Assembly (NCBI RefSeq): GCF_019038415.1
Contig: NZ_JAFKRG010000052.1
Coordinates: 1-54,971, forward strand
DNA from: Synechococcus sp. CCY 9618
Lineage (GTDB): Bacteria; Cyanobacteriota; Cyanobacteriia; PCC-6307; Cyanobiaceae
Length of the DNA: 54,971 nt
Direction of reading: 5' to 3'
This document shows, in pieces, positions 1 through 22,346 of the stretch (its first letter is position 1; the number at the start of each line of letters is the position of its first letter). A program made the position numbers and the translations under genes. The notes beneath the pieces were generated by a model, which did not search any database, was not told where the DNA came from, and was given only the letters and a program-made list of their open reading frames with translations.

Positions 1-94
1 GGCGTACGCCTATGGAAGTCCTCCAGCAATGGAAAGCGGCCTGATCACCCCACCAGCTCTCATAGGAACTGGACCACTGATGGGGGTCACGTCA
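1..94 (-). mobile_element. Terminus of an unidentified insertion sequence (IS3-like?)
   Basis: The istB reading frame stops resembling IstB at about base 94. From there, read on the minus strand, the sequence begins TGACGTGACCCCCATCAG and continues with TGGTCC. A 5'-TG start followed by such a string resembles IS3-family ends, but this is from memory and was not searched. Further in, a GGAGG motif stands six bases before ATAGGCGTACGCC, which looks like a ribosome binding site followed by ATA where an orfA start would be expected. The window edge hides the rest. It could equally be host sequence brought in by a deletion. Confidence 0.35.
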
Positions 95-729
95 ATCAGC
101 ACGCTGCCGCGCTGGTAGCAGCGCGAGATCAGCTGGAAGAACAGGTACGCCGCGTTTGGCTCCAGCGGTAGGTAGCCCAGCTCATCAATGATCAGCAGCC
201 GGCTCTTGGCGTACTGCGTCAGTCGGGCTTCCAGGGCGTGCTGCGCCTGGGCCTTGGCCAGGGCGCTGATCAGCTCCATGGCACCGACGTACTGGACGCT
301 GTGACCAAGCCGCACCGCCTCCCGGCCCAGCGCCACTGCCAGGTGGGTCTTGCCCACGCCCGGTGGCCCAAGCAGCAGCAGGGTGTCGCCATTGGCCACC
401 CTGCGGCAGGTGGCCAGCTCACGCATCTGGGCCGGGTCGATCGACGGCTGGGCCTTGAAGTCGAACGCCTCCAGCGTCCGGACATAGGGGAAGCGCGCCA
501 GCCGCAGGGCCATCTCCATCCGCAGCTGGTCCTTGCGGGCCACCTCGGCCGCACACAGCCAGGCCAGCGCCTCTCGGAGATTCAGCTCGCGCCGCGCGGC
601 CTCCTCCAGCAGCGCATCCAGGCGGTCGCGGATCGCGGGCAGCCGCAGGCGGGTGAGCATCGCCTCCAGCTCCTCGGTCGGCACCGGGGGTGTTGCCGCT
701 GTGGTTCGGGTGCGTTGTGGGTTGCTCAT
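10..729 (-). pseudogene. istB: IstB-type ATP-binding helper of an IS21 element, C-terminus replaced
   Basis: IstB is the AAA+ ATPase that loads target DNA for the IstA transposase. The Walker A motif GPPGVGKT lies at residues 121-128 and the Walker B stretch LLIIDELGYLPL at about 178-189, both intact. After residue 212 (GSVLI) the family normally continues with a TSN-type sensor 1 and a further 40 or so residues. Here 27 unrelated residues follow to the stop, coded by the adjoining element terminus. The frame is therefore open (239 aa) but the ATPase lacks sensor and lid parts and is unlikely to work. The ATG overlaps the istA stop as ATGA (726-729), the usual coupling in IS21 elements. Confidence 0.8.
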
Positions 730-2084
730 GCCGCCACCTCCCCGATCAGCTCGGCATAGACGGCCAGAGGCCTGGCCAGCTCAGAGCTGCGCACGGTGCG
801 CCGCTCTCGCTCCCCATCACGACTAGCGCTGGCGTCCTGCAGCGATCGCACGGCCTCGCGCCGCTGCCGCTGCGGCACCAGGCCGACCCAGTGACCGTCG
901 ATCACCTGGCGGCTGCGGCTACCGGGCCGCTGCCTCCTGTGCTCGGCCACGATCCGCCCGCCGTGGCGGATCAGCACCTGCTGGTCCCGCACCATCACGC
1001 TCACCCGCGCTCTGATCAGCGCCTGCGGCGCCGAATACCAATTGGCCTCCACTTCCACGCAGCAGTCGCTGTGCACGATCCGCACCAGCTCCCGCTCCGC
1101 CAGAAACGACGGCTTGGCCTCCAGCGGCTGCAGCGCCTGGGCTTCCTCCCGCAGAAAGCGCTGCAGCGGTTCCTCGCCGGTGGTGCCATGCACCCGCAGG
1201 TCGGCCACCTCGCGGCTCCAGCGCACCAGATGGGCCTCAAACTCCGCCCAGCTGCTGAACTCCCGCCCGGCAATGGCGTTCCTTTTCACGTACGCCACCC
1301 CTCGCTCATCCTTGCCTTTGGTCCTTGCCCGGTACGGCCGGCAGGCGCGAGGCTTGAACCCCCAGTAGCGGGCGAATCCCTCCAGTCGCTCGGCAAAAAC
1401 AAGAATGTTTCGCTCCGGATCGTGCTGGCTGACCAACGCCCGGGCGTTGTCCACCAGCACCTCCTTGGGCACACCGCCCCAATGGCGGAAGCCCTCCTCC
1501 AGTGCCGCGAGCCAGTGCTCCTGCTTCTCGCTGCGAAACGCCCGCACCAGCAACCGGCGCGAATAGCCCAGCGTCAGTACCGCCAGGTGCACCCGCACCC
1601 GCTCGCCGGCGATGCTCACCATGCACTGGCCAAAGTCAGCCTGCAGCTGCCGGCCTGGTGGCGTCTCGAATCGCACTGTCGCCAGGGCCGCGTTGCGCAG
1701 CTCCTGCCGCCACGGCTCCACGGCACGCTCCACCGTGCGCAGGCTCACCTTGATCCCTTTCTCACTCGCCAGCTCCTGGCGCACCACATCGGCATTGCCG
1801 CGGTGGGCCAGAAACCGCTGCCGCAGCCACTCCCTCTGTCCGTCAAGAACCGCGTGACGGCAAGGCTTTCCGTAGGGCTGCCAGCCGCCTTGCCGCAGGT
1901 ACTTGCGCACCGTTTCCGGTGAGCAGCCCAGTTCCCTGGCAATGCGCCGTCGGCCCCAGCCGACGGCCGCAAGCCGTCGCATCGCCTCCACGTCCTGAGG
2001 GGTCTGCACCGCCGTCTCCAGAGCCATCGGCTCCAGAGATGGCGCCCCTCCACGGCCCCTGTTGTGCTCGCTGGCTCGTTCCAC
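726..2084 (-). CDS. istA: IS21-family transposase IstA
   Basis: IstA is the DDE transposase that cuts and joins IS21 ends. The 452-residue frame has an N-terminal helix-turn-helix (about 29-64, GRRRIARELGCSPETVRKYL). An RNase H-fold catalytic core follows with Asp150 (LQADFGQ), Asp212 (VLVDNARALV) and Glu260 (GKDERGVAYVK). A C-terminal domain (about 330-420) is of the usual IS21 kind. The length is slightly short for the family. The listed GTG start lies beside the terminal repeats; an ATG at 2025-2027 (MALETAVQTP) is an equally good start. The stop overlaps istB by 4 bp. The transposase looks intact, but its partner IstB and one element end are damaged. Confidence 0.88.
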   Translation of the reverse strand: MERASEHNRGRGGAPSLEPMALETAVQTPQDVEAMRRLAAVGWGRRRIARELGCSPETVRKYLRQGGWQPYGKPCRHAVLDGQREWLRQRFLAHRGNADVVRQELASEKGIKVSLRTVERAVEPWRQELRNAALATVRFETPPGRQLQADFGQCMVSIAGERVRVHLAVLTLGYSRRLLVRAFRSEKQEHWLAALEEGFRHWGGVPKEVLVDNARALVSQHDPERNILVFAERLEGFARYWGFKPRACRPYRARTKGKDERGVAYVKRNAIAGREFSSWAEFEAHLVRWSREVADLRVHGTTGEEPLQRFLREEAQALQPLEAKPSFLAERELVRIVHSDCCVEVEANWYSAPQALIRARVSVMVRDQQVLIRHGGRIVAEHRRQRPGSRSRQVIDGHWVGLVPQRQRREAVRSLQDASASRDGERERRTVRSSELARPLAVYAELIGEVAA

Positions 2085-2089
2085 CGGGT

Positions 2090-2133
2090 GGACCAGTTTT
2101 CGTGTCGCCTCCGGACCAGTTTTCGCTGTCGCC
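2090..2133. repeat. Subterminal direct repeats of the IS21 element
   Basis: GGACCAGTTTTCGTGTCGCC (2090-2109) and GGACCAGTTTTCGCTGTCGCC minus its last base (2113-2132) are two copies differing by one inserted C. They are placed just inside the element tip at 2138. Multiple terminal repeats of about 20 bp are a hallmark of IS21-family ends and serve as IstA binding sites. Confidence 0.75.
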
Positions 2134-2138
2134 TGACA

Positions 2139-2509
2139 ACGAGAAGGGGCCGACCACGGTGGCCTTTCTGAGCCGGGCGGTGGCCTGGTTCAACGGCCAG
2201 GGGATTGAGTGCCGGCGGGTGCTCAGCGACAACGGATCGGCCTACAAGTCGCACGGCTGGCGAAAGGCTTGCCAAGTCATGGGTTTGAAAGTCAAGAAAA
2301 CAAGGCCCTACACCCCTCGAACCAACGGCAAGGCTGAGCGGTTCATCAAGACCCTGCTGGAGGAGTGGGCCTATGTGGTGCCCCACAGCACCTCAGCGGC
2401 TCGCAATGAGCTGCTGCCGGCCTACTTGCGGATCTATAACGGCCGCAGGTGCCACATGGCCCTGGGTGGCCTCACCCCCCAGCAGCGACTCGCTCAGCTG
2501 CAGGCATGA
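2139..2509 (+). pseudogene. IS481-family transposase, C-terminal fragment
   Basis: About 123 residues of an rve-type integrase core remain, including the second catalytic Asp in VLSDNGS, the Glu in TNGKAERFIKTLL, and the closing YNGRRCHMALGGLTPQQRL typical of IS481 transposases. The N-terminal half (helix-turn-helix and first catalytic Asp) is gone because the IS21 element inserted at 2138/2139. The open frame that runs upstream from 1919 is a chance fusion with antisense IS21 sequence. The stop codon (2507-2509) overlaps the element's terminal inverted repeat. Confidence 0.85.
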
Positions 2510-2536: not shown

Positions 2537-2831
2537 AACCTTCTCTCTGAAGGACGGTGCCATTAACGGGGGATTCCAGTCGGCAGACGTTCCCGCATCG
2601 GCTGCTGTTGTCGTGTCTAGCAAAGAATCAGTGCGAACAAGTGACCACGAAAAGAGGAGAACGCAAAACCATCGGGCCGGCGCATCTTCTCCAAGCCAAT
2701 CTCTGATTTCTGGAGAGTGCCCTCTCTCTTCCCAAACCGAGTGGTGAACTGAGCAACGGAAATCTGGATAGACGCCGATGACACGCCAATGGCATCCCTT
2801 GAGGAACACTTCAATAGCACGAAGTACCCCA
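2537..2831. other. AT-richer stretch with no recognisable gene
   Basis: About 300 bp lie between the IS481 remnant and the terminator of the next gene. Overlapping open frames of about 80-160 codons occur on both strands. None has a convincing ribosome binding site, a recognisable motif or the codon usage of the chromosome. Base composition is clearly lower in GC than the core genes. It may be decayed coding DNA or insertion debris. Confidence 0.5.
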
Positions 2832-2867
2832 TAAAATGAAAAAGGATGCATCCATAAGGATGCATCC
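2832..2867 (-). terminator. Rho-independent terminator of the PEP-CTERM-like gene
   Basis: On the minus strand the palindrome GGATGCATCC occurs twice (2858-2867 and 2844-2853), separated by four bases, so the two copies can pair as a 10-bp stem with a TTAT loop. The run TTTTTCATTTTAT follows directly (2843 to 2831). It lies 56 bp beyond the stop at 2923. Because each half is itself palindromic, the structure would also fold on the plus strand, but there it lacks a T-run. Confidence 0.85.
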
Positions 2868-2922
2868 AAGCAGGGAAACCGTTTGTGTGATTCGAAGACC
2901 TTGAGAAATTTTCCGGGGTCTC

Positions 2923-3705
2923 TCAGGCCTTGAGGAATGAAGCGTTAGCGCCCTTAACTCGCTTACGAAGACGACGGCTGTACCCGAAAGCAGCACCTGC
3001 ACCAAGGATGGGAAGAGGGCCGGGAACTTGAGCGGGCCTTTGAAGGCTGATGGACTGAGTGCCAAAGATAACGGTCTGTAGCAAAGAATCGCCAGTTTGA
3101 CCGTTAAAGAAGGTGGTGGAGACCGCGGGGCCTCCATTTGCTCCTGGAGTTGTAAGAGTGAAACTCACCAGTGTGGCCAACAGGTCAGCATCGCCATTGT
3201 TCGGCAATGCGGCGCCGACATCACCTGTGATGGGGCCAGGGAAGAAGAATGGGGCTTGAAGGCCACCAGTGATGAGCAATCCTGGGGTGTTACTCAGGGA
3301 AATAGTGTAGAATTGATCAATCCCTGAACCAGATGTAAGCGCTCCAGGAGGGACGCCCGGATCAGTCTCACAGGATGGATCGGCATTGCAGGCTGCAATT
3401 GATGCTGCATTGGGGTTCCACTCCGTGGAGTCAAAACCCAGTTCATAAGACAGGGCGGTCAGAGAGGATCCAGCAAATCCAAAGAATGGAAGCCCGAATT
3501 GGTTGAGATTGATCTGGAAGAAGAAGTCTTGAGTTGCCTGACCAAATGGAATTTCCAGGTCGCTGATGATGTCGGCGTCGAGATCGGCACCCACAGGGGT
3601 AAATTCAACGCCGAAGGCGTGAGCGCTGTTGGCGGATCCAAACAGAAAGGCTGCTGGCAGCAGAGCGGTTCCAGCCGCTCGGGCAAGAAGTTTGGTGAGG
3701 TTCAT
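2923..3705 (-). CDS. Secreted protein with cyanobacterial PEP-CTERM-like sorting tail
   Basis: A 260-residue protein of unknown function. An N-terminal signal peptide (about 1-30, MNLTKLLARAAGTALLPAAF, ending ANSAHA) is followed by a roughly 190-residue low-complexity beta-type domain rich in Gly, Phe, Asn, Thr and Pro. This contains three Cys (two in the AACNADPSCETDPG segment). The C-terminus reads VPGPLPILGAGAAFGYSRRL and then basic residues: a PxPLP-type motif, a short hydrophobic helix and an Arg cluster. That is the layout of the cyanobacterial PEP-CTERM variant recognised by exosortase-type enzymes (family knowledge). It has its own terminator and a long upstream region. GC content is well below that of the core genes, suggesting transfer. 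No exosortase gene is in this window. Confidence 0.75.
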   Translation of the reverse strand: MNLTKLLARAAGTALLPAAFLFGSANSAHAFGVEFTPVGADLDADIISDLEIPFGQATQDFFFQINLNQFGLPFFGFAGSSLTALSYELGFDSTEWNPNAASIAACNADPSCETDPGVPPGALTSGSGIDQFYTISLSNTPGLLITGGLQAPFFFPGPITGDVGAALPNNGDADLLATLVSFTLTTPGANGGPAVSTTFFNGQTGDSLLQTVIFGTQSISLQRPAQVPGPLPILGAGAAFGYSRRLRKRVKGANASFLKA

Positions 3706-4139
3706 GGCTTGTGGGGCCTGTTGGGTGGCGAAGTGAACGGCTGGGCTGAAATGGTGCGGAATGCCTCAGTTGGCAAGCTTGCTCACAATAGCACCAAGAG
3801 TGAAAGGTGGGTGAAGGCCTCCAAAGGACTTCAGCGTTTCCTCATGAATGGCCCTGGGTGGCCCGAGTTCAGACCCGTAAACGATCAAATTGTGACGATT
3901 GGTAAAGGATCTTCATTGGCCCTGCCCATTGATGCATGGTCGTGCCGATGAGGGGGCAACCCGCGCAGACAATGGCTTCAGGGTTCCAGGTTCCGGGTCC
4001 ATTAAACCGACAAAGCACGTCTGATCTGGACAGTCTCCTACCTGTCTGTGGTTTTGGACTGAACATAGCGGACGTTACGGCCTTCAGGCGCTAGTTTCCC
4101 CTAGACGTTCCAGGACCTCGACGAGGTTTCGGACTCACC
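3706..4139. other. Divergent intergenic region, 434 bp
   Basis: This separates the minus-strand PEP-CTERM-like gene from the plus-strand HpsJ-like gene and must hold both promoters, but no clear -35/-10 pair could be chosen with confidence. The short perfect palindrome CCTCGACGAGG lies at about 4114-4124, roughly 15 bp before the start codon at 4140. Open frames here (for example 3869-4066 on the minus strand) look accidental. Confidence 0.4.
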
Positions 4140-4967
4140 ATGCTCGATCCGCTCACCGGTGATGCCATCAAGCCGAACCCCTCTCCCGATGATGAGCCCT
4201 TGAATGCTGAGACCGCGGCGCGTACGGCAGGGAGCGATCTGCTCATGGCGATCGCCAGTTGCCTCTTCCTGGTCTTCCTCGCCAACACCGTGGTGGAATT
4301 GCTGCCTGTCCAGCTCCTCAAGCCCCAGTGGCAACTGGGCTTCGTGGCACGCCTTCTGGGCTCCAGCTCGATCGCCCTGGGTGGTTTTGCGTTCGTCCAC
4401 ATCGCCTCGACCCTGAACCCGGCCAACCCCTTCTACCGCCGACGGCTTGAGACTGTTCGCCGATTGGCCACCTTCGCCGCGATCGGGTTCTTTCTGCTTA
4501 TTCCTCTGCAGGGTTTCGCTACCTGGAAGTCTTACACCCAGTCGCAGACCACTCAGCAGGCACTCATTGAACAATCCGAAAAACGCCTGGCTCCCCTCAA
4601 ACAGGCCATCGAATCCGCCACCGGCACAGCCGATCTGCAGCAGAAACTTTCGCGTCTCCCTGAATTCCGCCTGCGGCTGGGACCCGACGATCTGGACAAG
4701 CCGCTGGATCAGGTCAGAACAGCGCTCCTGAACAACATCGCCCGAACTGAAAATCTCTATGCCGACCGCCTCGCGACCAAGCCCAATCAGATCTGGGCCG
4801 CCATTCAGGGCGGGACACGCACCCTTCTGACAGCTCTGGCGTATTCCTTTGCATTCGCCGCCGGCGCCCAACCTGGTCGGTCGTCGGTCACCCTGCTGGA
4901 CATGATCAGGATGAGCTTCCAGTCTCTGTTAGGTGGGCGCCGCAGACGTTCTCGGCCTTCCGCCTGA
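4140..4967 (+). CDS. HpsJ-like integral membrane protein
   Basis: A 275-residue protein. Two adjacent hydrophobic segments (about residues 33-50 and 68-88) are followed by a third after an Arg-rich loop (about 108-124, LATFAAIGFFLLIPLQGF). A mainly helical soluble region of about 80 residues comes next (QSEKRLAPLKQAIESATGTA onward), then a last weak hydrophobic segment (about 228-245) and a basic C-terminus (GGRRRRSR). This order of membrane segments, an FLLIPLQ-type third segment and a helical domain resembles HpsJ-family proteins, which in cyanobacteria are linked to exopolysaccharide export and cyanoexosortase loci. The match is from memory. Its position beside a PEP-CTERM-like protein fits that link. 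ATG 4140 is the only good start. Confidence 0.45.
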   Translation: MLDPLTGDAIKPNPSPDDEPLNAETAARTAGSDLLMAIASCLFLVFLANTVVELLPVQLLKPQWQLGFVARLLGSSSIALGGFAFVHIASTLNPANPFYRRRLETVRRLATFAAIGFFLLIPLQGFATWKSYTQSQTTQQALIEQSEKRLAPLKQAIESATGTADLQQKLSRLPEFRLRLGPDDLDKPLDQVRTALLNNIARTENLYADRLATKPNQIWAAIQGGTRTLLTALAYSFAFAAGAQPGRSSVTLLDMIRMSFQSLLGGRRRRSRPSA

Positions 4968-5207: not shown

Positions 5208-6839
5208 TTGCCGACGACCAGGGCGCGGAGACCAAGACCACAGCGGCAGCGCAGGGCAGTGGCCGTCCTGGGCAGCCTGGGGCTGGCTTTGCCGCTGCTG
5301 GCCGGCTGCCAGCCGCCGCGCCCCGGCCTTTCCCTGGTCGTCGCCACCAAGAGCCGCATCGACTCCCTCGACCCTGCCCAGGCCTCCCGGATCGGTGTGA
5401 TGCAGGTGCTCAGCGGCCTGGGGGACCCCCTCTATGCCATCGACGCCAGCGGCCGCATCGAGCCGCGGCTGGCCACGGCCCTGCCGGTGCTCAGCCTCGA
5501 TGGGCTGCGGGCCCGCATCCCCCTGCGCCGGGGGGTGCTCTTTCACGACGGCACCCGCTTCGACGCCGAGGCCATGGCGTTCTCGCTGCGGCGCTTCATG
5601 GCCATCGGCACCCTCGGCTATCAGCTGAGCGAACGGGTCGAAGCCGTGCGGACCACCGGTCCCTATGAGCTCGAACTGGTGCTGAAGCGCCCCTTCAGCC
5701 CCCTGCCGCGGCTGCTGAGCGCCATCTTCCTGACTCCGGTGTCGCCGACGGCCTACCGGGAGTACCGCGACAAGCCCCTCAACGAACGCTTCGTGGGCAC
5801 CGGCCCCTATGCCCTGGCCTTCTTCAGCGGCCAGCAGCAGCGGCTGGTGCCCTTTCACCGTTACTGGGGCCGAAGGCCGGCCAACGGCGGCATCGACCTG
5901 GTCACGCTGAGCAATTCCACGGCCCTGTTCGGGGCCCTGCGCAGCGGCGAAGTGGATCTGCTGCTCAGCAGCGGACTGGAGATCGACCACCAGGAGGCCC
6001 TGCACCGCGATGCCGGCGCCGGTCGCCTGCGCGAGGCGGTGGGGCCCTCCCAGGAGATCGGTCTGGTGTCGCTGCTGAGCGATCAACCGCCGCTGGATCG
6101 CCTGCCCCTGCGGCAGGCGGTGGCCCTGAGCCTGGATCGCGGCACGATCAGCCAACGGGTAGCCCTGGGGCTGCGCGCGCCCCTGCGTCAGCTGATCCCC
6201 CCCAGCCTGCCGGGCTCCGATCCCAGCGCGTGGCCGACCTACGACCCGGCAGGGGCCCGTGCCCTCTACCGCCGGGAGGGCTACTGCAGCGGCCGGGTGC
6301 TCACCCTGCCGCTGACCTACCGCTCCGACATCCCCACCGATCGCCTGTTCGCCCTCACCTGGCAGGCCCAGCTGCGCCGGGACCTGGGCGACTGCGTGGC
6401 CCTGGAGCTGACCGGCATGGAATCGACCACCGCCTACGCCCAGCTGGACAAGGGCACCCTGACGATGCTGTTCTACGACTGGATCGCTGATTACCCCGAC
6501 GCGGAGAACTTCCTGATGCCGCTGCTGGCCTGCAGCCAGGCTGAAGCCGACCGCTGCCTGAAGGGCAACAGCGTGCTCGGCGGCACCTTCTGGACGGCAC
6601 CCGGCCTGCAGCAGCAGCTCGAACGCAGCAGCCAGCTGGCGGGCCCCGACCGGATCGCCCTGCTGGAGGCCATCCAGCGCCGTGTCGGGGCGGCCAGCCC
6701 CTACCTGCCGGTCTGGCTCAGCGCCCCGGTGGCCTGGGGCCGGCTGCCTGTCAGCCGGCCCCGCTTCGACGGATCCGGCCGGGTGCTGCTGGGCGAACTG
6801 CATCGGCTGCCGACCACCGCCGGGGGGTCGCCGCCGTGA
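5208..6839 (+). CDS. Peptide/nickel-type ABC transporter substrate-binding lipoprotein
   Basis: 543 residues of the SBP_bac_5 (DppA/OppA/NikA) family. It captures small peptides or similar ligands outside the inner membrane and delivers them to the permease. A basic N-terminus (RRPRPQRQRR) leads into a hydrophobic stretch and the lipobox LLAGC (Cys near residue 34), so it should be lipid-anchored. The body carries the family features DSLDPAQ, a VLFHDGTRFDAEAMAFSLRR segment and FVGTGPY. The listed start is TTG, chosen because it supplies the basic part of the signal peptide; a GTG at 5259 would omit it. The stop overlaps the next gene as GTGA, so the two are co-translated. The 240 bp upstream hold only a doubtful 56-codon frame (5034-5204). 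Confidence 0.85.
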   Translation: MPTTRARRPRPQRQRRAVAVLGSLGLALPLLAGCQPPRPGLSLVVATKSRIDSLDPAQASRIGVMQVLSGLGDPLYAIDASGRIEPRLATALPVLSLDGLRARIPLRRGVLFHDGTRFDAEAMAFSLRRFMAIGTLGYQLSERVEAVRTTGPYELELVLKRPFSPLPRLLSAIFLTPVSPTAYREYRDKPLNERFVGTGPYALAFFSGQQQRLVPFHRYWGRRPANGGIDLVTLSNSTALFGALRSGEVDLLLSSGLEIDHQEALHRDAGAGRLREAVGPSQEIGLVSLLSDQPPLDRLPLRQAVALSLDRGTISQRVALGLRAPLRQLIPPSLPGSDPSAWPTYDPAGARALYRREGYCSGRVLTLPLTYRSDIPTDRLFALTWQAQLRRDLGDCVALELTGMESTTAYAQLDKGTLTMLFYDWIADYPDAENFLMPLLACSQAEADRCLKGNSVLGGTFWTAPGLQQQLERSSQLAGPDRIALLEAIQRRVGAASPYLPVWLSAPVAWGRLPVSRPRFDGSGRVLLGELHRLPTTAGGSPP

Positions 6840-15551: not shown

Positions 15552-16508
15552 TCAGTCGCCACGCGCCAGGCGCCGCAGAGACCACAGGCCTCTTCGAAGG
15601 ACATCGATGACGACGTCCCATCGATGCATGAAGCCTTGCCTGATCCTCAGCAGAGGCAGATACAGAGCCATCGGGATCGGTGGCATGGGCTCGAACAGCG
15701 CCCCATAGCTGATTCCAAGCCGATCAAACATCAAGAGCATCGCCGGGATCTCCACCAGGCCCTCGAGTGTGAGAAAAGAATGGACATAGTCATACTTGCC
15801 CATCAGCAGATCCACGGCACAGTGAAAACAAAATCCCTGCTTCTCCCGATAAGCGAGCAGCGACCTTCTGGAAAAATCCTGCAAGATGCCGGAGAGATGC
15901 TGCTTGCTGCTGATTCTGTGGGGTCGGTAGGGCTTGTAATGGAATTCGAAATAAACAATTGCTGTGGACGTCTTGCGGTCGCCCAGCCTGGAGCGCCCCT
16001 GGTGGTAGCCATGGTCCAGATAGCCACAGGCTGCGTAGGCAAAAAAGCACTTGGGGCTCGACGTCGTGAGGGCGTAGAAGTCTTTGCGGCAGGGGTTATG
16101 CCAGTACTTGTGCTGGATCGTCAGAACGTCGTCGCTGCCGAGGAAAGGCTGTAAGGCCCCTTCGAGATCCTGCCGCCGACAGGAGGACCCGGCATCGGTC
16201 TGGCAGGCGAGGAACTCGTCACAATCCAGCAGGAAGTAGAAGTCGAAGCTGTCTTCCCGATCCAGGCGCTGAATCAGGTCGACGATCAGCGGGCCGCGCT
16301 CGCGATGATGCCGAGGACTCCCATACTCCCAGAACACATGCACGCCACTGCGCTGGGCCTGCTTCAGAGTCCGTACAACGGAGCGGGACGTGGAGCCGTT
16401 ATCGAAGATGAACAGATTTTCGTGGCCCACCAGATCAGCGTGGTAACGAATCCATGGATCCAGCAGAATCGTTTCGTTCTTCTGCATCATCACGCAGGCG
16501 AATCTCAT
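15552..16508 (-). CDS. Glycosyltransferase family 2-like (Glyco_tranf_2_4) protein
   Basis: 318 residues from ATG 16508 ([20 protein letters not shown]). The N-terminal segment MMQKNE, the FDNGSTS loop, and above all the DCDEF metal-binding motif (DXD-like, about residue 98) are typical of GT2-type enzymes of the PF13704 group, which often decorate surface polysaccharides. A basic, aromatic-rich second half includes HKYWHNPC and [11 protein letters not shown]. Composition is clearly lower in GC than the genes on either side, suggesting later acquisition. An earlier TTG (16535) is possible but not needed. No sugar-pathway partner adjoins it. Confidence 0.75.
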
Positions 16509-16577
16509 GCCGCGTCTGGCTGACCTCTGGGGCAAAGCATAAGGACCCAGGACGTCTGCACCCCCGCAGAGGGCTGA

Positions 16578-21146: not shown

Positions 21147-22346
21147 TTGAACGCTCCAGCTGGCCCCCAGGTTTTGCAGAGTTCTTCCATGCCACAGGCA
21201 CCCCCGCCGCCTCCACCGGAGGGAACAAGTCCTGGGTCGATGTTTCTCGCCGAAACGGCCCCGCCGATGCTCTTCAACGGGGGACCGCCGCCGAAGCTCG
21301 AGGACATCGTGCGGGTGGCGTTCGATCGTAATTTTTCCGACATTCACCTGGGCGTCGGCGAAGAACCCCGCTTCCGCAACCGTGGCGACATGCTGCCTGC
21401 AGGCCTCCCGGCCACCGACAGCATCACCTTCCGGGACTGGCTGCGGGAAATCATGGAGCCCGCCGAGATTGATCGCTTCATCCAGCAGAAGGAGCATGAC
21501 GGCTCCTTCGCCTTCGGCTTCGTGCGGATCCGGGTCAATCTGCTGGAATCGCTTCTGGGCCCAGCGATGGTCTTGCGGCTCATCCCCCAGACCATTCCCA
21601 GCATCGATGAACTGAACCTGCCCCAGGTGCTCAAGGATCTGGCCCTGCGGCCCAAGGGCATGCTCCTGGTGACCGGACCCACAGGTTCGGGCAAGAGCAC
21701 GACGCTGGCCGCGGTCATCGACCACATCAACCGAACGATGAAACGCCACATCCTCACCATTGAGGATCCCGTGGAATTCGTTCACAAGAGCCGCCAGTCG
21801 CTGATCCGTCAGAGAGAACTCGGTACCCACACCAAGTACTTCAAGACGGCCCTGCGGGCGGCGCTGCGCGAGGATCCCGATGTGATCCTGATCGGTGAGA
21901 TCCGCGACCAGGAAACCCTCACCACCGCCATCGAAGCCTCCCAGACCGGCCACCTGCTGCTCGGCACCCTGCACACCAATTCCGCCGTCCGGGCAGTTGA
22001 GCGCATGTTGGGGATGTACCCCCCTCAGGAACAGGATGGGGTGCGTCGGGCGGTGTCCGATTCGCTTCTGGGCGTGATCTCCCAGGGCCTGATCAAAACG
22101 GTCGATGGCAAGCGGACATCCTTTCACGATGTGTTCATCAACACCGATGCCTGCCGCGATTACATCCAGAGAGCCGATCTTGACGAGATCGAGTCGATCA
22201 TGGAGCGCAGCGGCTTCGATGGCATGATCACCTCCAACCAGTATCTGGCTCGCCTTGTTCAGGAGGGCAAGGTCAACGGTGAGGAAGCCATGGCTGCCAG
22301 CCACAAGCCCAGCGAGCTGGCCCAGACCTTGCGCGGAAGGACCTGA
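21147..22346 (+). CDS. pilT: PilT-type type IV pilus retraction/twitching ATPase
   Basis: A 399-residue secretion ATPase of the hexameric PilT class, powering pilus retraction (motility, DNA uptake). The N-terminal PAS-like domain with SDIHLGVGEEPRFR is followed by Walker A GPTGSGKST (177-185), Asp box ILTIEDPVEF, Walker B VILIGEIRD (246-254) and His box TGHLLLGTLHTNSA. The C-terminal helix reads SNQYLARLVQEGK in place of the AIRNLIREGK of classical PilT, so it could be a PilU-like or divergent paralogue. The start is uncertain: TTG 21147 or ATG 21189; the first 40 residues are a Pro-rich, poorly conserved leader. No other pil gene is adjacent. Confidence 0.88.
   Translation: MNAPAGPQVLQSSSMPQAPPPPPPEGTSPGSMFLAETAPPMLFNGGPPPKLEDIVRVAFDRNFSDIHLGVGEEPRFRNRGDMLPAGLPATDSITFRDWLREIMEPAEIDRFIQQKEHDGSFAFGFVRIRVNLLESLLGPAMVLRLIPQTIPSIDELNLPQVLKDLALRPKGMLLVTGPTGSGKSTTLAAVIDHINRTMKRHILTIEDPVEFVHKSRQSLIRQRELGTHTKYFKTALRAALREDPDVILIGEIRDQETLTTAIEASQTGHLLLGTLHTNSAVRAVERMLGMYPPQEQDGVRRAVSDSLLGVISQGLIKTVDGKRTSFHDVFINTDACRDYIQRADLDEIESIMERSGFDGMITSNQYLARLVQEGKVNGEEAMAASHKPSELAQTLRGRT

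Follow-up and report, generated by a model that had tools for sequence, protein, structure and literature searches.

Recurrent pairing of HpsJ-like membrane protein genes with genes for VPGPLP-tailed, presumed exosortase substrates in a cyanobacterial genus

We have found that an exported-type protein with a C-terminal VPGPLP tail (P0001) and an HpsJ-like membrane protein (P0002), encoded side by side in the window (the whole analysed stretch of 54,971 nucleotides from Synechococcus sp. CCY 9618), represent a pairing of genes that recurs in a cyanobacterial genus. Across 20 genomes of this genus, a tail protein adjoins the HpsJ-like protein at no fewer than 162 of 183 HpsJ loci; the partners include many mutually dissimilar substrates, and the type of HpsJ-like protein goes with the type of substrate. 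We consider the chance about even that many exosortase substrates have HpsJ-like partners dedicated to them and share one enzyme, and an escort or adaptor role of the HpsJ-like proteins appears similarly balanced. The original prediction had placed two divergent ORFs here, and both are present (Table 1); the surface-protein module that it proposed, in the sense of tail-bearing P0001 with HpsJ-like P0002, is also supported.

Table 1. Features of the window discussed in the text
Feature	Position	Strand	Description
IS21-type istB (10-729) and istA (726-2084)	10..2084	-	Neighbours only
ORF with integrase-core (rve_3) fragment	1919..2509	+	Neighbour only
Intrinsic terminator of P0001	2844..2867	-	10-bp perfect stem, then TTTTT
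P0001	2923..3705	-	260 aa, secreted-type, with a sorting-type VPGPLP tail at the C-terminus; presumably an exosortase substrate
P0001 tail	2950..3039	-	Match of the 30-position tail profile, E 5.5e-18; P0001 is among the seven sequences building the profile
Divergent intergenic region	3706..4139	.	Between P0001 and P0002
P0002	4140..4967	+	275 aa, HpsJ-like membrane protein, four long predicted helices, stalk presumed periplasmic; presumably the dedicated partner of P0001
ABC solute-binding protein gene	5208..6839	+	Synteny marker; directly downstream of P0002

P0001 begins with a signal-peptide-like stretch (MNLTKLLARAAGTALLPAAFLFGSANSAHA, by eye). Its translated ORF ends in the tail VPGPLPILGAGAAFGYSRRLRKR, with the C-terminus reading VPGPLPILGAGAAFGYSRRLRKRVKGANASFLKA, and the VPGPLP motif is followed by a hydrophobic part and the basic cluster RRLRKR. 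This protein had been described as PEP-CTERM-like. On the one hand, the tripartite end of motif, hydrophobic stretch and basic cluster is present in all seven tails of the genome (by eye), and the genome encodes an exosortase. On the other hand, the Pro-Glu-Pro motif is absent: P0001 has VPGPLP, with G in place of the E of PEP-CTERM, and PEP occurs in none of the seven tails. The hydrophobic part of the P0001 tail is short, below the 19-residue hydropathy threshold, and the cyano_PEP model (TIGR04155), applied to the isolated tail, scored 14.6 against a curated cut-off of 21.6. Whole P0001 matched no Pfam or NCBIfam model up to E 10, and its structure prediction without an alignment (mean pLDDT 36) was set aside. 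The strong terminator attributed to P0001 was confirmed, with a folding z of -3.07 for its region and none of 200 shuffles equally stable; the whole scan gave three terminator-like sites against 2.8 in shuffles, and the P0001 site alone stands out, by its stem.

The predicted resemblance of P0002 to HpsJ was borne out, although under the curated cut-offs. NF050013 (HpsJ-like, cyanoexosortase A-associated) matched P0002 with E 1.4e-20 and 73.9 bits against a cut-off of 140, and the alignment spans model positions 11-207 of 217, which is significant homology over most of the model. The HpsJ family model NF038305 gave 48.3 against a cut-off of 60. P0001 and P0002 therefore each show likeness to a known family, cyano_PEP and HpsJ respectively, but both stay below the curated cut-offs, and P0002 is, judged by sequence, a divergent HpsJ relative below all of them. 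Its four paralogs in the same genome pass the cut-off of NF038305 in two cases (66.7 and 69.1) and that of NF050013 in none. A scan of named genomes with P0002 as the lone query gave no matches. A sixth, distant HpsJ relative of this genome (L111 6574-7179, minus strand, corresponding to G000:C47:95573-96178; NF038305 103.8 bits, over the cut-off) lies among gyrase A-like and other housekeeping-type ORFs (by eye), and one weak match of the L111 kind occurs in each of six other genus genomes.

The P0002 model, built with 14 sequences (mean pLDDT 80.5, pTM 0.54), has long helices at residues 23-54, 62-92, 97-159 and 189-243. Considering the basic loop 91-108 and the basic end 244-275, we infer that the hairpin 130-218 may lie in the periplasm; a simple hydropathy count gave three to seven segments among 83 HpsJ-like proteins. 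A known fold for P0002 was rejected, since Foldseek searches of the model against the PDB and a viral library returned nothing under E 0.001 and the PDB gave no sequence relative (best E 0.17).

The genome of the window holds seven tail genes, so that the proposed check for other proteins with the same tail found six besides P0001, and five HpsJ-like genes, namely that of P0002 and its four paralogs. All five HpsJ-like genes lie near a tail gene, divergently on contigs C52 and C40 (with a 1.2 kb gap on C40) and in tandem on C43, C48 and C19; two of the seven tail genes have no HpsJ-like gene. The sorting enzyme had been expected elsewhere in the genome, and a single exosortase is indeed encoded on another contig (G000:C11:59263-60018). 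The best of its 16 matched NCBIfam models is cyanoexosortase A, TIGR03763, whose cut-off it misses (123.9 against 150), and it passes PF09721 (100.8 against 25.7). This protein contains GPCNGL, NTFR and FHEST (letters by eye), Cys, Arg and His stretches that we take to be as expected of the exosortase family. Its neighbours match polysaccharide-export and sugar-nucleotide models below the cut-offs.

HpsJ-profile matches number 4-22 per genome in all 42 genus genomes (E 0.001), counts that may be raised by draft assemblies, fragments and matches of the distant single-copy kind. When 200 genomes of the family were sampled at E 1e-15, the 19 genus genomes had from 4 to at least 11 HpsJ matches among the matches listed, and of the other 181 genomes, 12 had one or two and 169 had none. 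An exosortase match was found in 39 of the 42 genus genomes, exactly one in 33 of them. Two of 33 near-complete genus genomes, G009 and G035, have HpsJ-like genes and no exosortase match, and both assemblies comprise more than 200 contigs.

Pairing was counted in 20 of the 42 genus genomes as a VPGPLP-tail gene within 3 kb of an HpsJ-like gene, with the expectation taken from tail density. The first set comprised the window's own genome and nine good assemblies, and the second set comprised ten other genomes picked after the first result. Rows of the first set were filtered before counting: those with E >1e-6 were removed for HpsJ (9 of 92, comprising seven of the single-copy, distant kind and two G015:C1 fragments) and those with E >0.01 for tails (7 of 137). 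Of the 83 HpsJ-like genes left, 81 had a tail gene within 3 kb (2.4 expected; median 345 bp). In the second set, at least 81 of 100 were paired, counted with the best 150 of 166 tail rows (2.9 expected; median 232 bp). Seen from the tails of the first set, 80 of 130 were paired; the remaining 50 lacked an HpsJ-like gene within 3 kb, which means that some substrates have none nearby. The first set has 11 exosortase places, and a comparison of coordinates by eye put none of the 83 HpsJ-like genes within 10 kb of any of them. At G015:C1:644654-652356, a second exosortase (648045-648797) has three tail genes and two fragments of HpsJ as neighbours.

The two exceptions of the first set, L075 and L081, both belong to G008. 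At L075 a stop falls inside the HpsJ match, and a divergent tail gene (VPGPSALPALVLVYGQSRRLRRRL) is located about 3.1 kb away; the neighbourhood of L081 has no tail gene. In the second set, 19 of 100 HpsJ-like genes were unpaired among the tail rows listed, and a relaxed tail search around these 19 found none. L191 and L192 among them are partial matches, and for L183, L193 and L194 the contig ends on the upstream side. A hidden tail was accordingly rejected for these 19 genes and for L081. Loci L176-L190 of the second set are mostly full-length HpsJ-like genes, several of 350-400 aa, with no tail gene found nearby.

Among the 81 pairs of the first set, the tail gene is upstream on the same strand in 53, divergent in 18, convergent in 7 and downstream in 3, and the second set has the tail gene followed by the HpsJ-like gene on one strand in 65 of 81. 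Three pairs overlap by 4 nt. Because the layout varies, the link between tail and HpsJ-like genes appears to have outlived rearrangement.

The tail-less bodies of 81 tail proteins in the fetched loci form 27 BLAST groups (E 1e-8), 16 of them singletons. Nearest partners account for 72 of these proteins in 23 groups, or 21 groups without two short fragments; the 21 have no mutual BLAST similarity at E 1e-8, and remote homology between them may remain. In 59 of 81 cases, an HpsJ-like protein and its best inter-genome match have partners that fall into one group, against 10% by chance. Similarity of HpsJ-like proteins between genomes follows that of the partner bodies with r 0.78 (70 unique pairs, 21 groups), against a mean of 0.02 and a maximum of 0.15 in 500 within-genome partner shuffles. 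P0002 itself has as its best inter-genome match a G002 gene beside a tail protein of a different group, and its G011 ortholog ranks next. These similarities show tail/HpsJ pairs that, as far as sequences can tell, are kept as units; linked inheritance alone could give an r of 0.78, and contact is not implied by it.

A simpler account would be that tail and HpsJ-like genes are merely a linked cassette duplicating together, with interchangeable HpsJ-like proteins that have no substrate preference. Linkage would yield matching similarities, tandem clusters of several pairs occur (L066, L070), and within the family the HpsJ expansion is seen in one genus only. However, plain cassette duplication leaves the 21 dissimilar body groups unexplained and sits poorly with the coexistence of tandem, divergent and convergent layouts, and we consider this account improbable.

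The partner bodies bear on a further possibility. In a Pfam scan of 14 tail proteins, two were over the cut-off: one with an amidase body (L063 2247-3965, 236 bits) and one with a DUF1194 body (L056 2732-3754, 100 bits); both genes adjoin an HpsJ-like gene. Considering the amidase, and one partner whose metzincin-like match is weak and falls far short of the cut-off, an HpsJ-like protein could act as a brake or in the manner of an immunity protein, so that the adjacent secreted protein stays inactive, or free of aggregation, within the envelope. Such a role appears highly improbable to us, given that those two were the only bodies over the cut-off and that HpsJ relatives elsewhere go with exosortases.

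Within the 83 HpsJ-like proteins, P56, W64, P122, Q124 and F239 occur in at least 95%; conservation at 70% or more is absent for Cys, His, Ser, Asp and Glu and is restricted, among polar residues, to Q, R and one K position. An enzymatic HpsJ was rejected, as these proteins have no conserved catalytic-type residue. Between groups with different partners, identity is highest in the loop 56-66 (51%) and helix 3 (47%) and lowest in the stalk (23%) and the two ends (13% and 22%), a pattern in keeping with a membrane part common to all groups and a stalk specific to the partner. The HpsJ-like partner might instead act after the cut, passing the cleaved protein on to the machinery that exports polysaccharide or serves the outer membrane, or forming part of its anchor. 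The C11 exosortase is indeed near a gene matching polysaccharide-export models (below cut-offs), and one HpsJ model, NF050014, is named for hormogonium polysaccharide synthesis; but the best-conserved loop and the third helix fit recognition of a tail not yet cut from the membrane at least as well, and we regard a post-cut action as unlikely.

P0001 and P0002 are separated by 434 bp, in which a simple scan found no sigma-70-like promoter. As predicted, the GC of both genes (54% for P0001 and 61% for P0002) is below the 69% of the whole window, and IS debris, consisting of IS21 istB/istA and the integrase-core fragment, adjoins on the left. From these features a low-GC module transferred in beside IS elements had been proposed, a claim that comparison with other genomes did not support. 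On the right, the pair is flanked by the ABC solute-binding protein gene and then a permease. The ABC gene has one match each in 12 of 12 genus genomes searched. Counting the window, 11 of 13 genus genomes carry an HpsJ-like gene directly upstream of the ABC ortholog in the same orientation, and 10 of the 11 also have a tail gene next to that HpsJ-like gene; both are missing at this position in G013 and G008. Because of this conserved placement, the position is old within the genus. Low GC is moreover common among tail genes, the tail gene having lower GC than its HpsJ gene in 68 of 81 pairs (ten genomes), and no tie between the IS elements and the pair was found. Recent transfer by IS elements was rejected on the synteny and the common low GC, and we find a transferred islet barely credible. 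G011 has a window-type pair in the same divergent layout, with orthologs 52% (P0001) and 47% (P0002) identical; it holds two pairs in a row, the window pair matching the outer one, and the window may thus have retained one pair and lost the other. Elsewhere in the window, a second low-GC gene with the look of a glycosyltransferase (15552-16535, minus strand; by eye) lies beside an ABC ATPase gene, and a PilT-like ATPase gene (21147-22346, plus strand; by eye) has GC below its surroundings.

In the phylum, the HpsJ family was over its cut-off in 44 of 117 genomes, with one to four matches in the other 43 of these 44, and from those 43 genomes we took in 59 of the 64 listed HpsJ regions outside the genus. 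The exosortase profile came from CrtA-like proteins and the tail profile from the genus, and other kinds could escape this search, in which a CrtA-like exosortase stood beside the HpsJ gene at 11 of 59 loci and a VPGPLP tail near it at none of the 59. Because of these 11 loci, the HpsJ family can be said to go with exosortases elsewhere too. VPEP-type tail genes were found within 2 kb of HpsJ at two of the 59 loci under a strict pattern, both in G071, and the tail-gene pairing may therefore not be wholly confined to the genus. One of them, L140 (5980-9100), has two VPEP-tail genes upstream of the HpsJ gene on the same strand and no exosortase detected; it may be a counterpart of the pairing that uses canonical tails. 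In an uncultured cyanobacterium (L175, Umea1p2_bin-0011), HpsJ and a VPAPLP-tail gene were also seen as a pair in divergent arrangement.

In the mechanism that we propose, P0001 would be exported by Sec, directed by an N-terminal signal peptide, and the short tail from VPGPLP to RRLRKR would keep it in the inner membrane. The single cyanoexosortase A-like protease, encoded on C11 among polysaccharide-type genes, would cut this tail, and the cut P0001 would be released or linked to the surface matrix. P0002 would be a non-enzymatic inner-membrane partner dedicated to P0001 alone, whose transmembrane helices carry a helical hairpin into the periplasm, the presumed location of both the cut site and the body of the substrate. 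Processing by the exosortase, this membrane topology and physical contact are presumed here. Because many substrates have a partner gene beside them, the genus system may be one in which many adaptors and many substrates lead to one enzyme. We suggest tentatively, at somewhat less than even probability, that the HpsJ-like proteins of the genus grew from an enzyme-side accessory into substrate-specific escorts, one per substrate and each matched to its partner body, feeding one protease that reads a non-PEP tail.

The names of the HpsJ models come from association with exosortases or hormogonium polysaccharide, and adjacency to tail proteins gives the family a testable job. For a many-to-one sorting system, the pairing suggests how selectivity may be gained. 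Since the curated models tried miss the VPGPLP tail class, the annotation of surface proteins in these cyanobacteria may be incomplete.

In the open-access literature, we found neither HpsJ together with exosortase nor PEP-CTERM together with Cyanobium. Mentions of HpsJ with hormogonium are limited to a table and a figure legend, in papers that mention neither exosortase nor PEP-CTERM. The letters hpsj belong to other subjects among the matches listed, and HpsJ with tail proteins is absent from titles and abstract openings, again among the matches listed. HpsJ has 0 occurrences in the main text of PMC12188702, and exosortase has none in that of PMC8205485.

Among known systems, the cyanoexosortase A system (TIGR03763, NF050013) resembles the present one in that the single exosortase best matches TIGR03763 and the HpsJ-like proteins are nearest NF050013. 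It differs in that the HpsJ-like genes of the genus sit with the substrates and not with the enzyme and occur in many copies, and in that the scores fall below the curated NCBIfam cut-offs. Cyanobacterial PEP-CTERM tails (TIGR04155) share the C-terminal motif, hydrophobic stretch and basic end, as well as many proteins for few enzymes per genome; in the genus, however, VPGPLP replaces VPEP, the hydrophobic stretch is about 12 residues (by eye), and the model score stays under its cut-off. The CrtB/hps system of Nostoc punctiforme likewise combines an exosortase, many tail proteins and a link to polysaccharide. It differs in that passages of PMC12188702 describe only one exosortase, of the B type, together with 35 genes encoding putative PEP-CTERM proteins, and in that HpsJ does not occur in the main text of that paper. 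Similarly, passages of PMC3237569 describe rhombosortase/GlyGly-CTERM systems with many tags to one enzyme, and gene adjacency in dedicated one-target systems. In those passages the adjacent gene is that of the enzyme, whereas here it encodes a partner without conserved catalytic-type residues.
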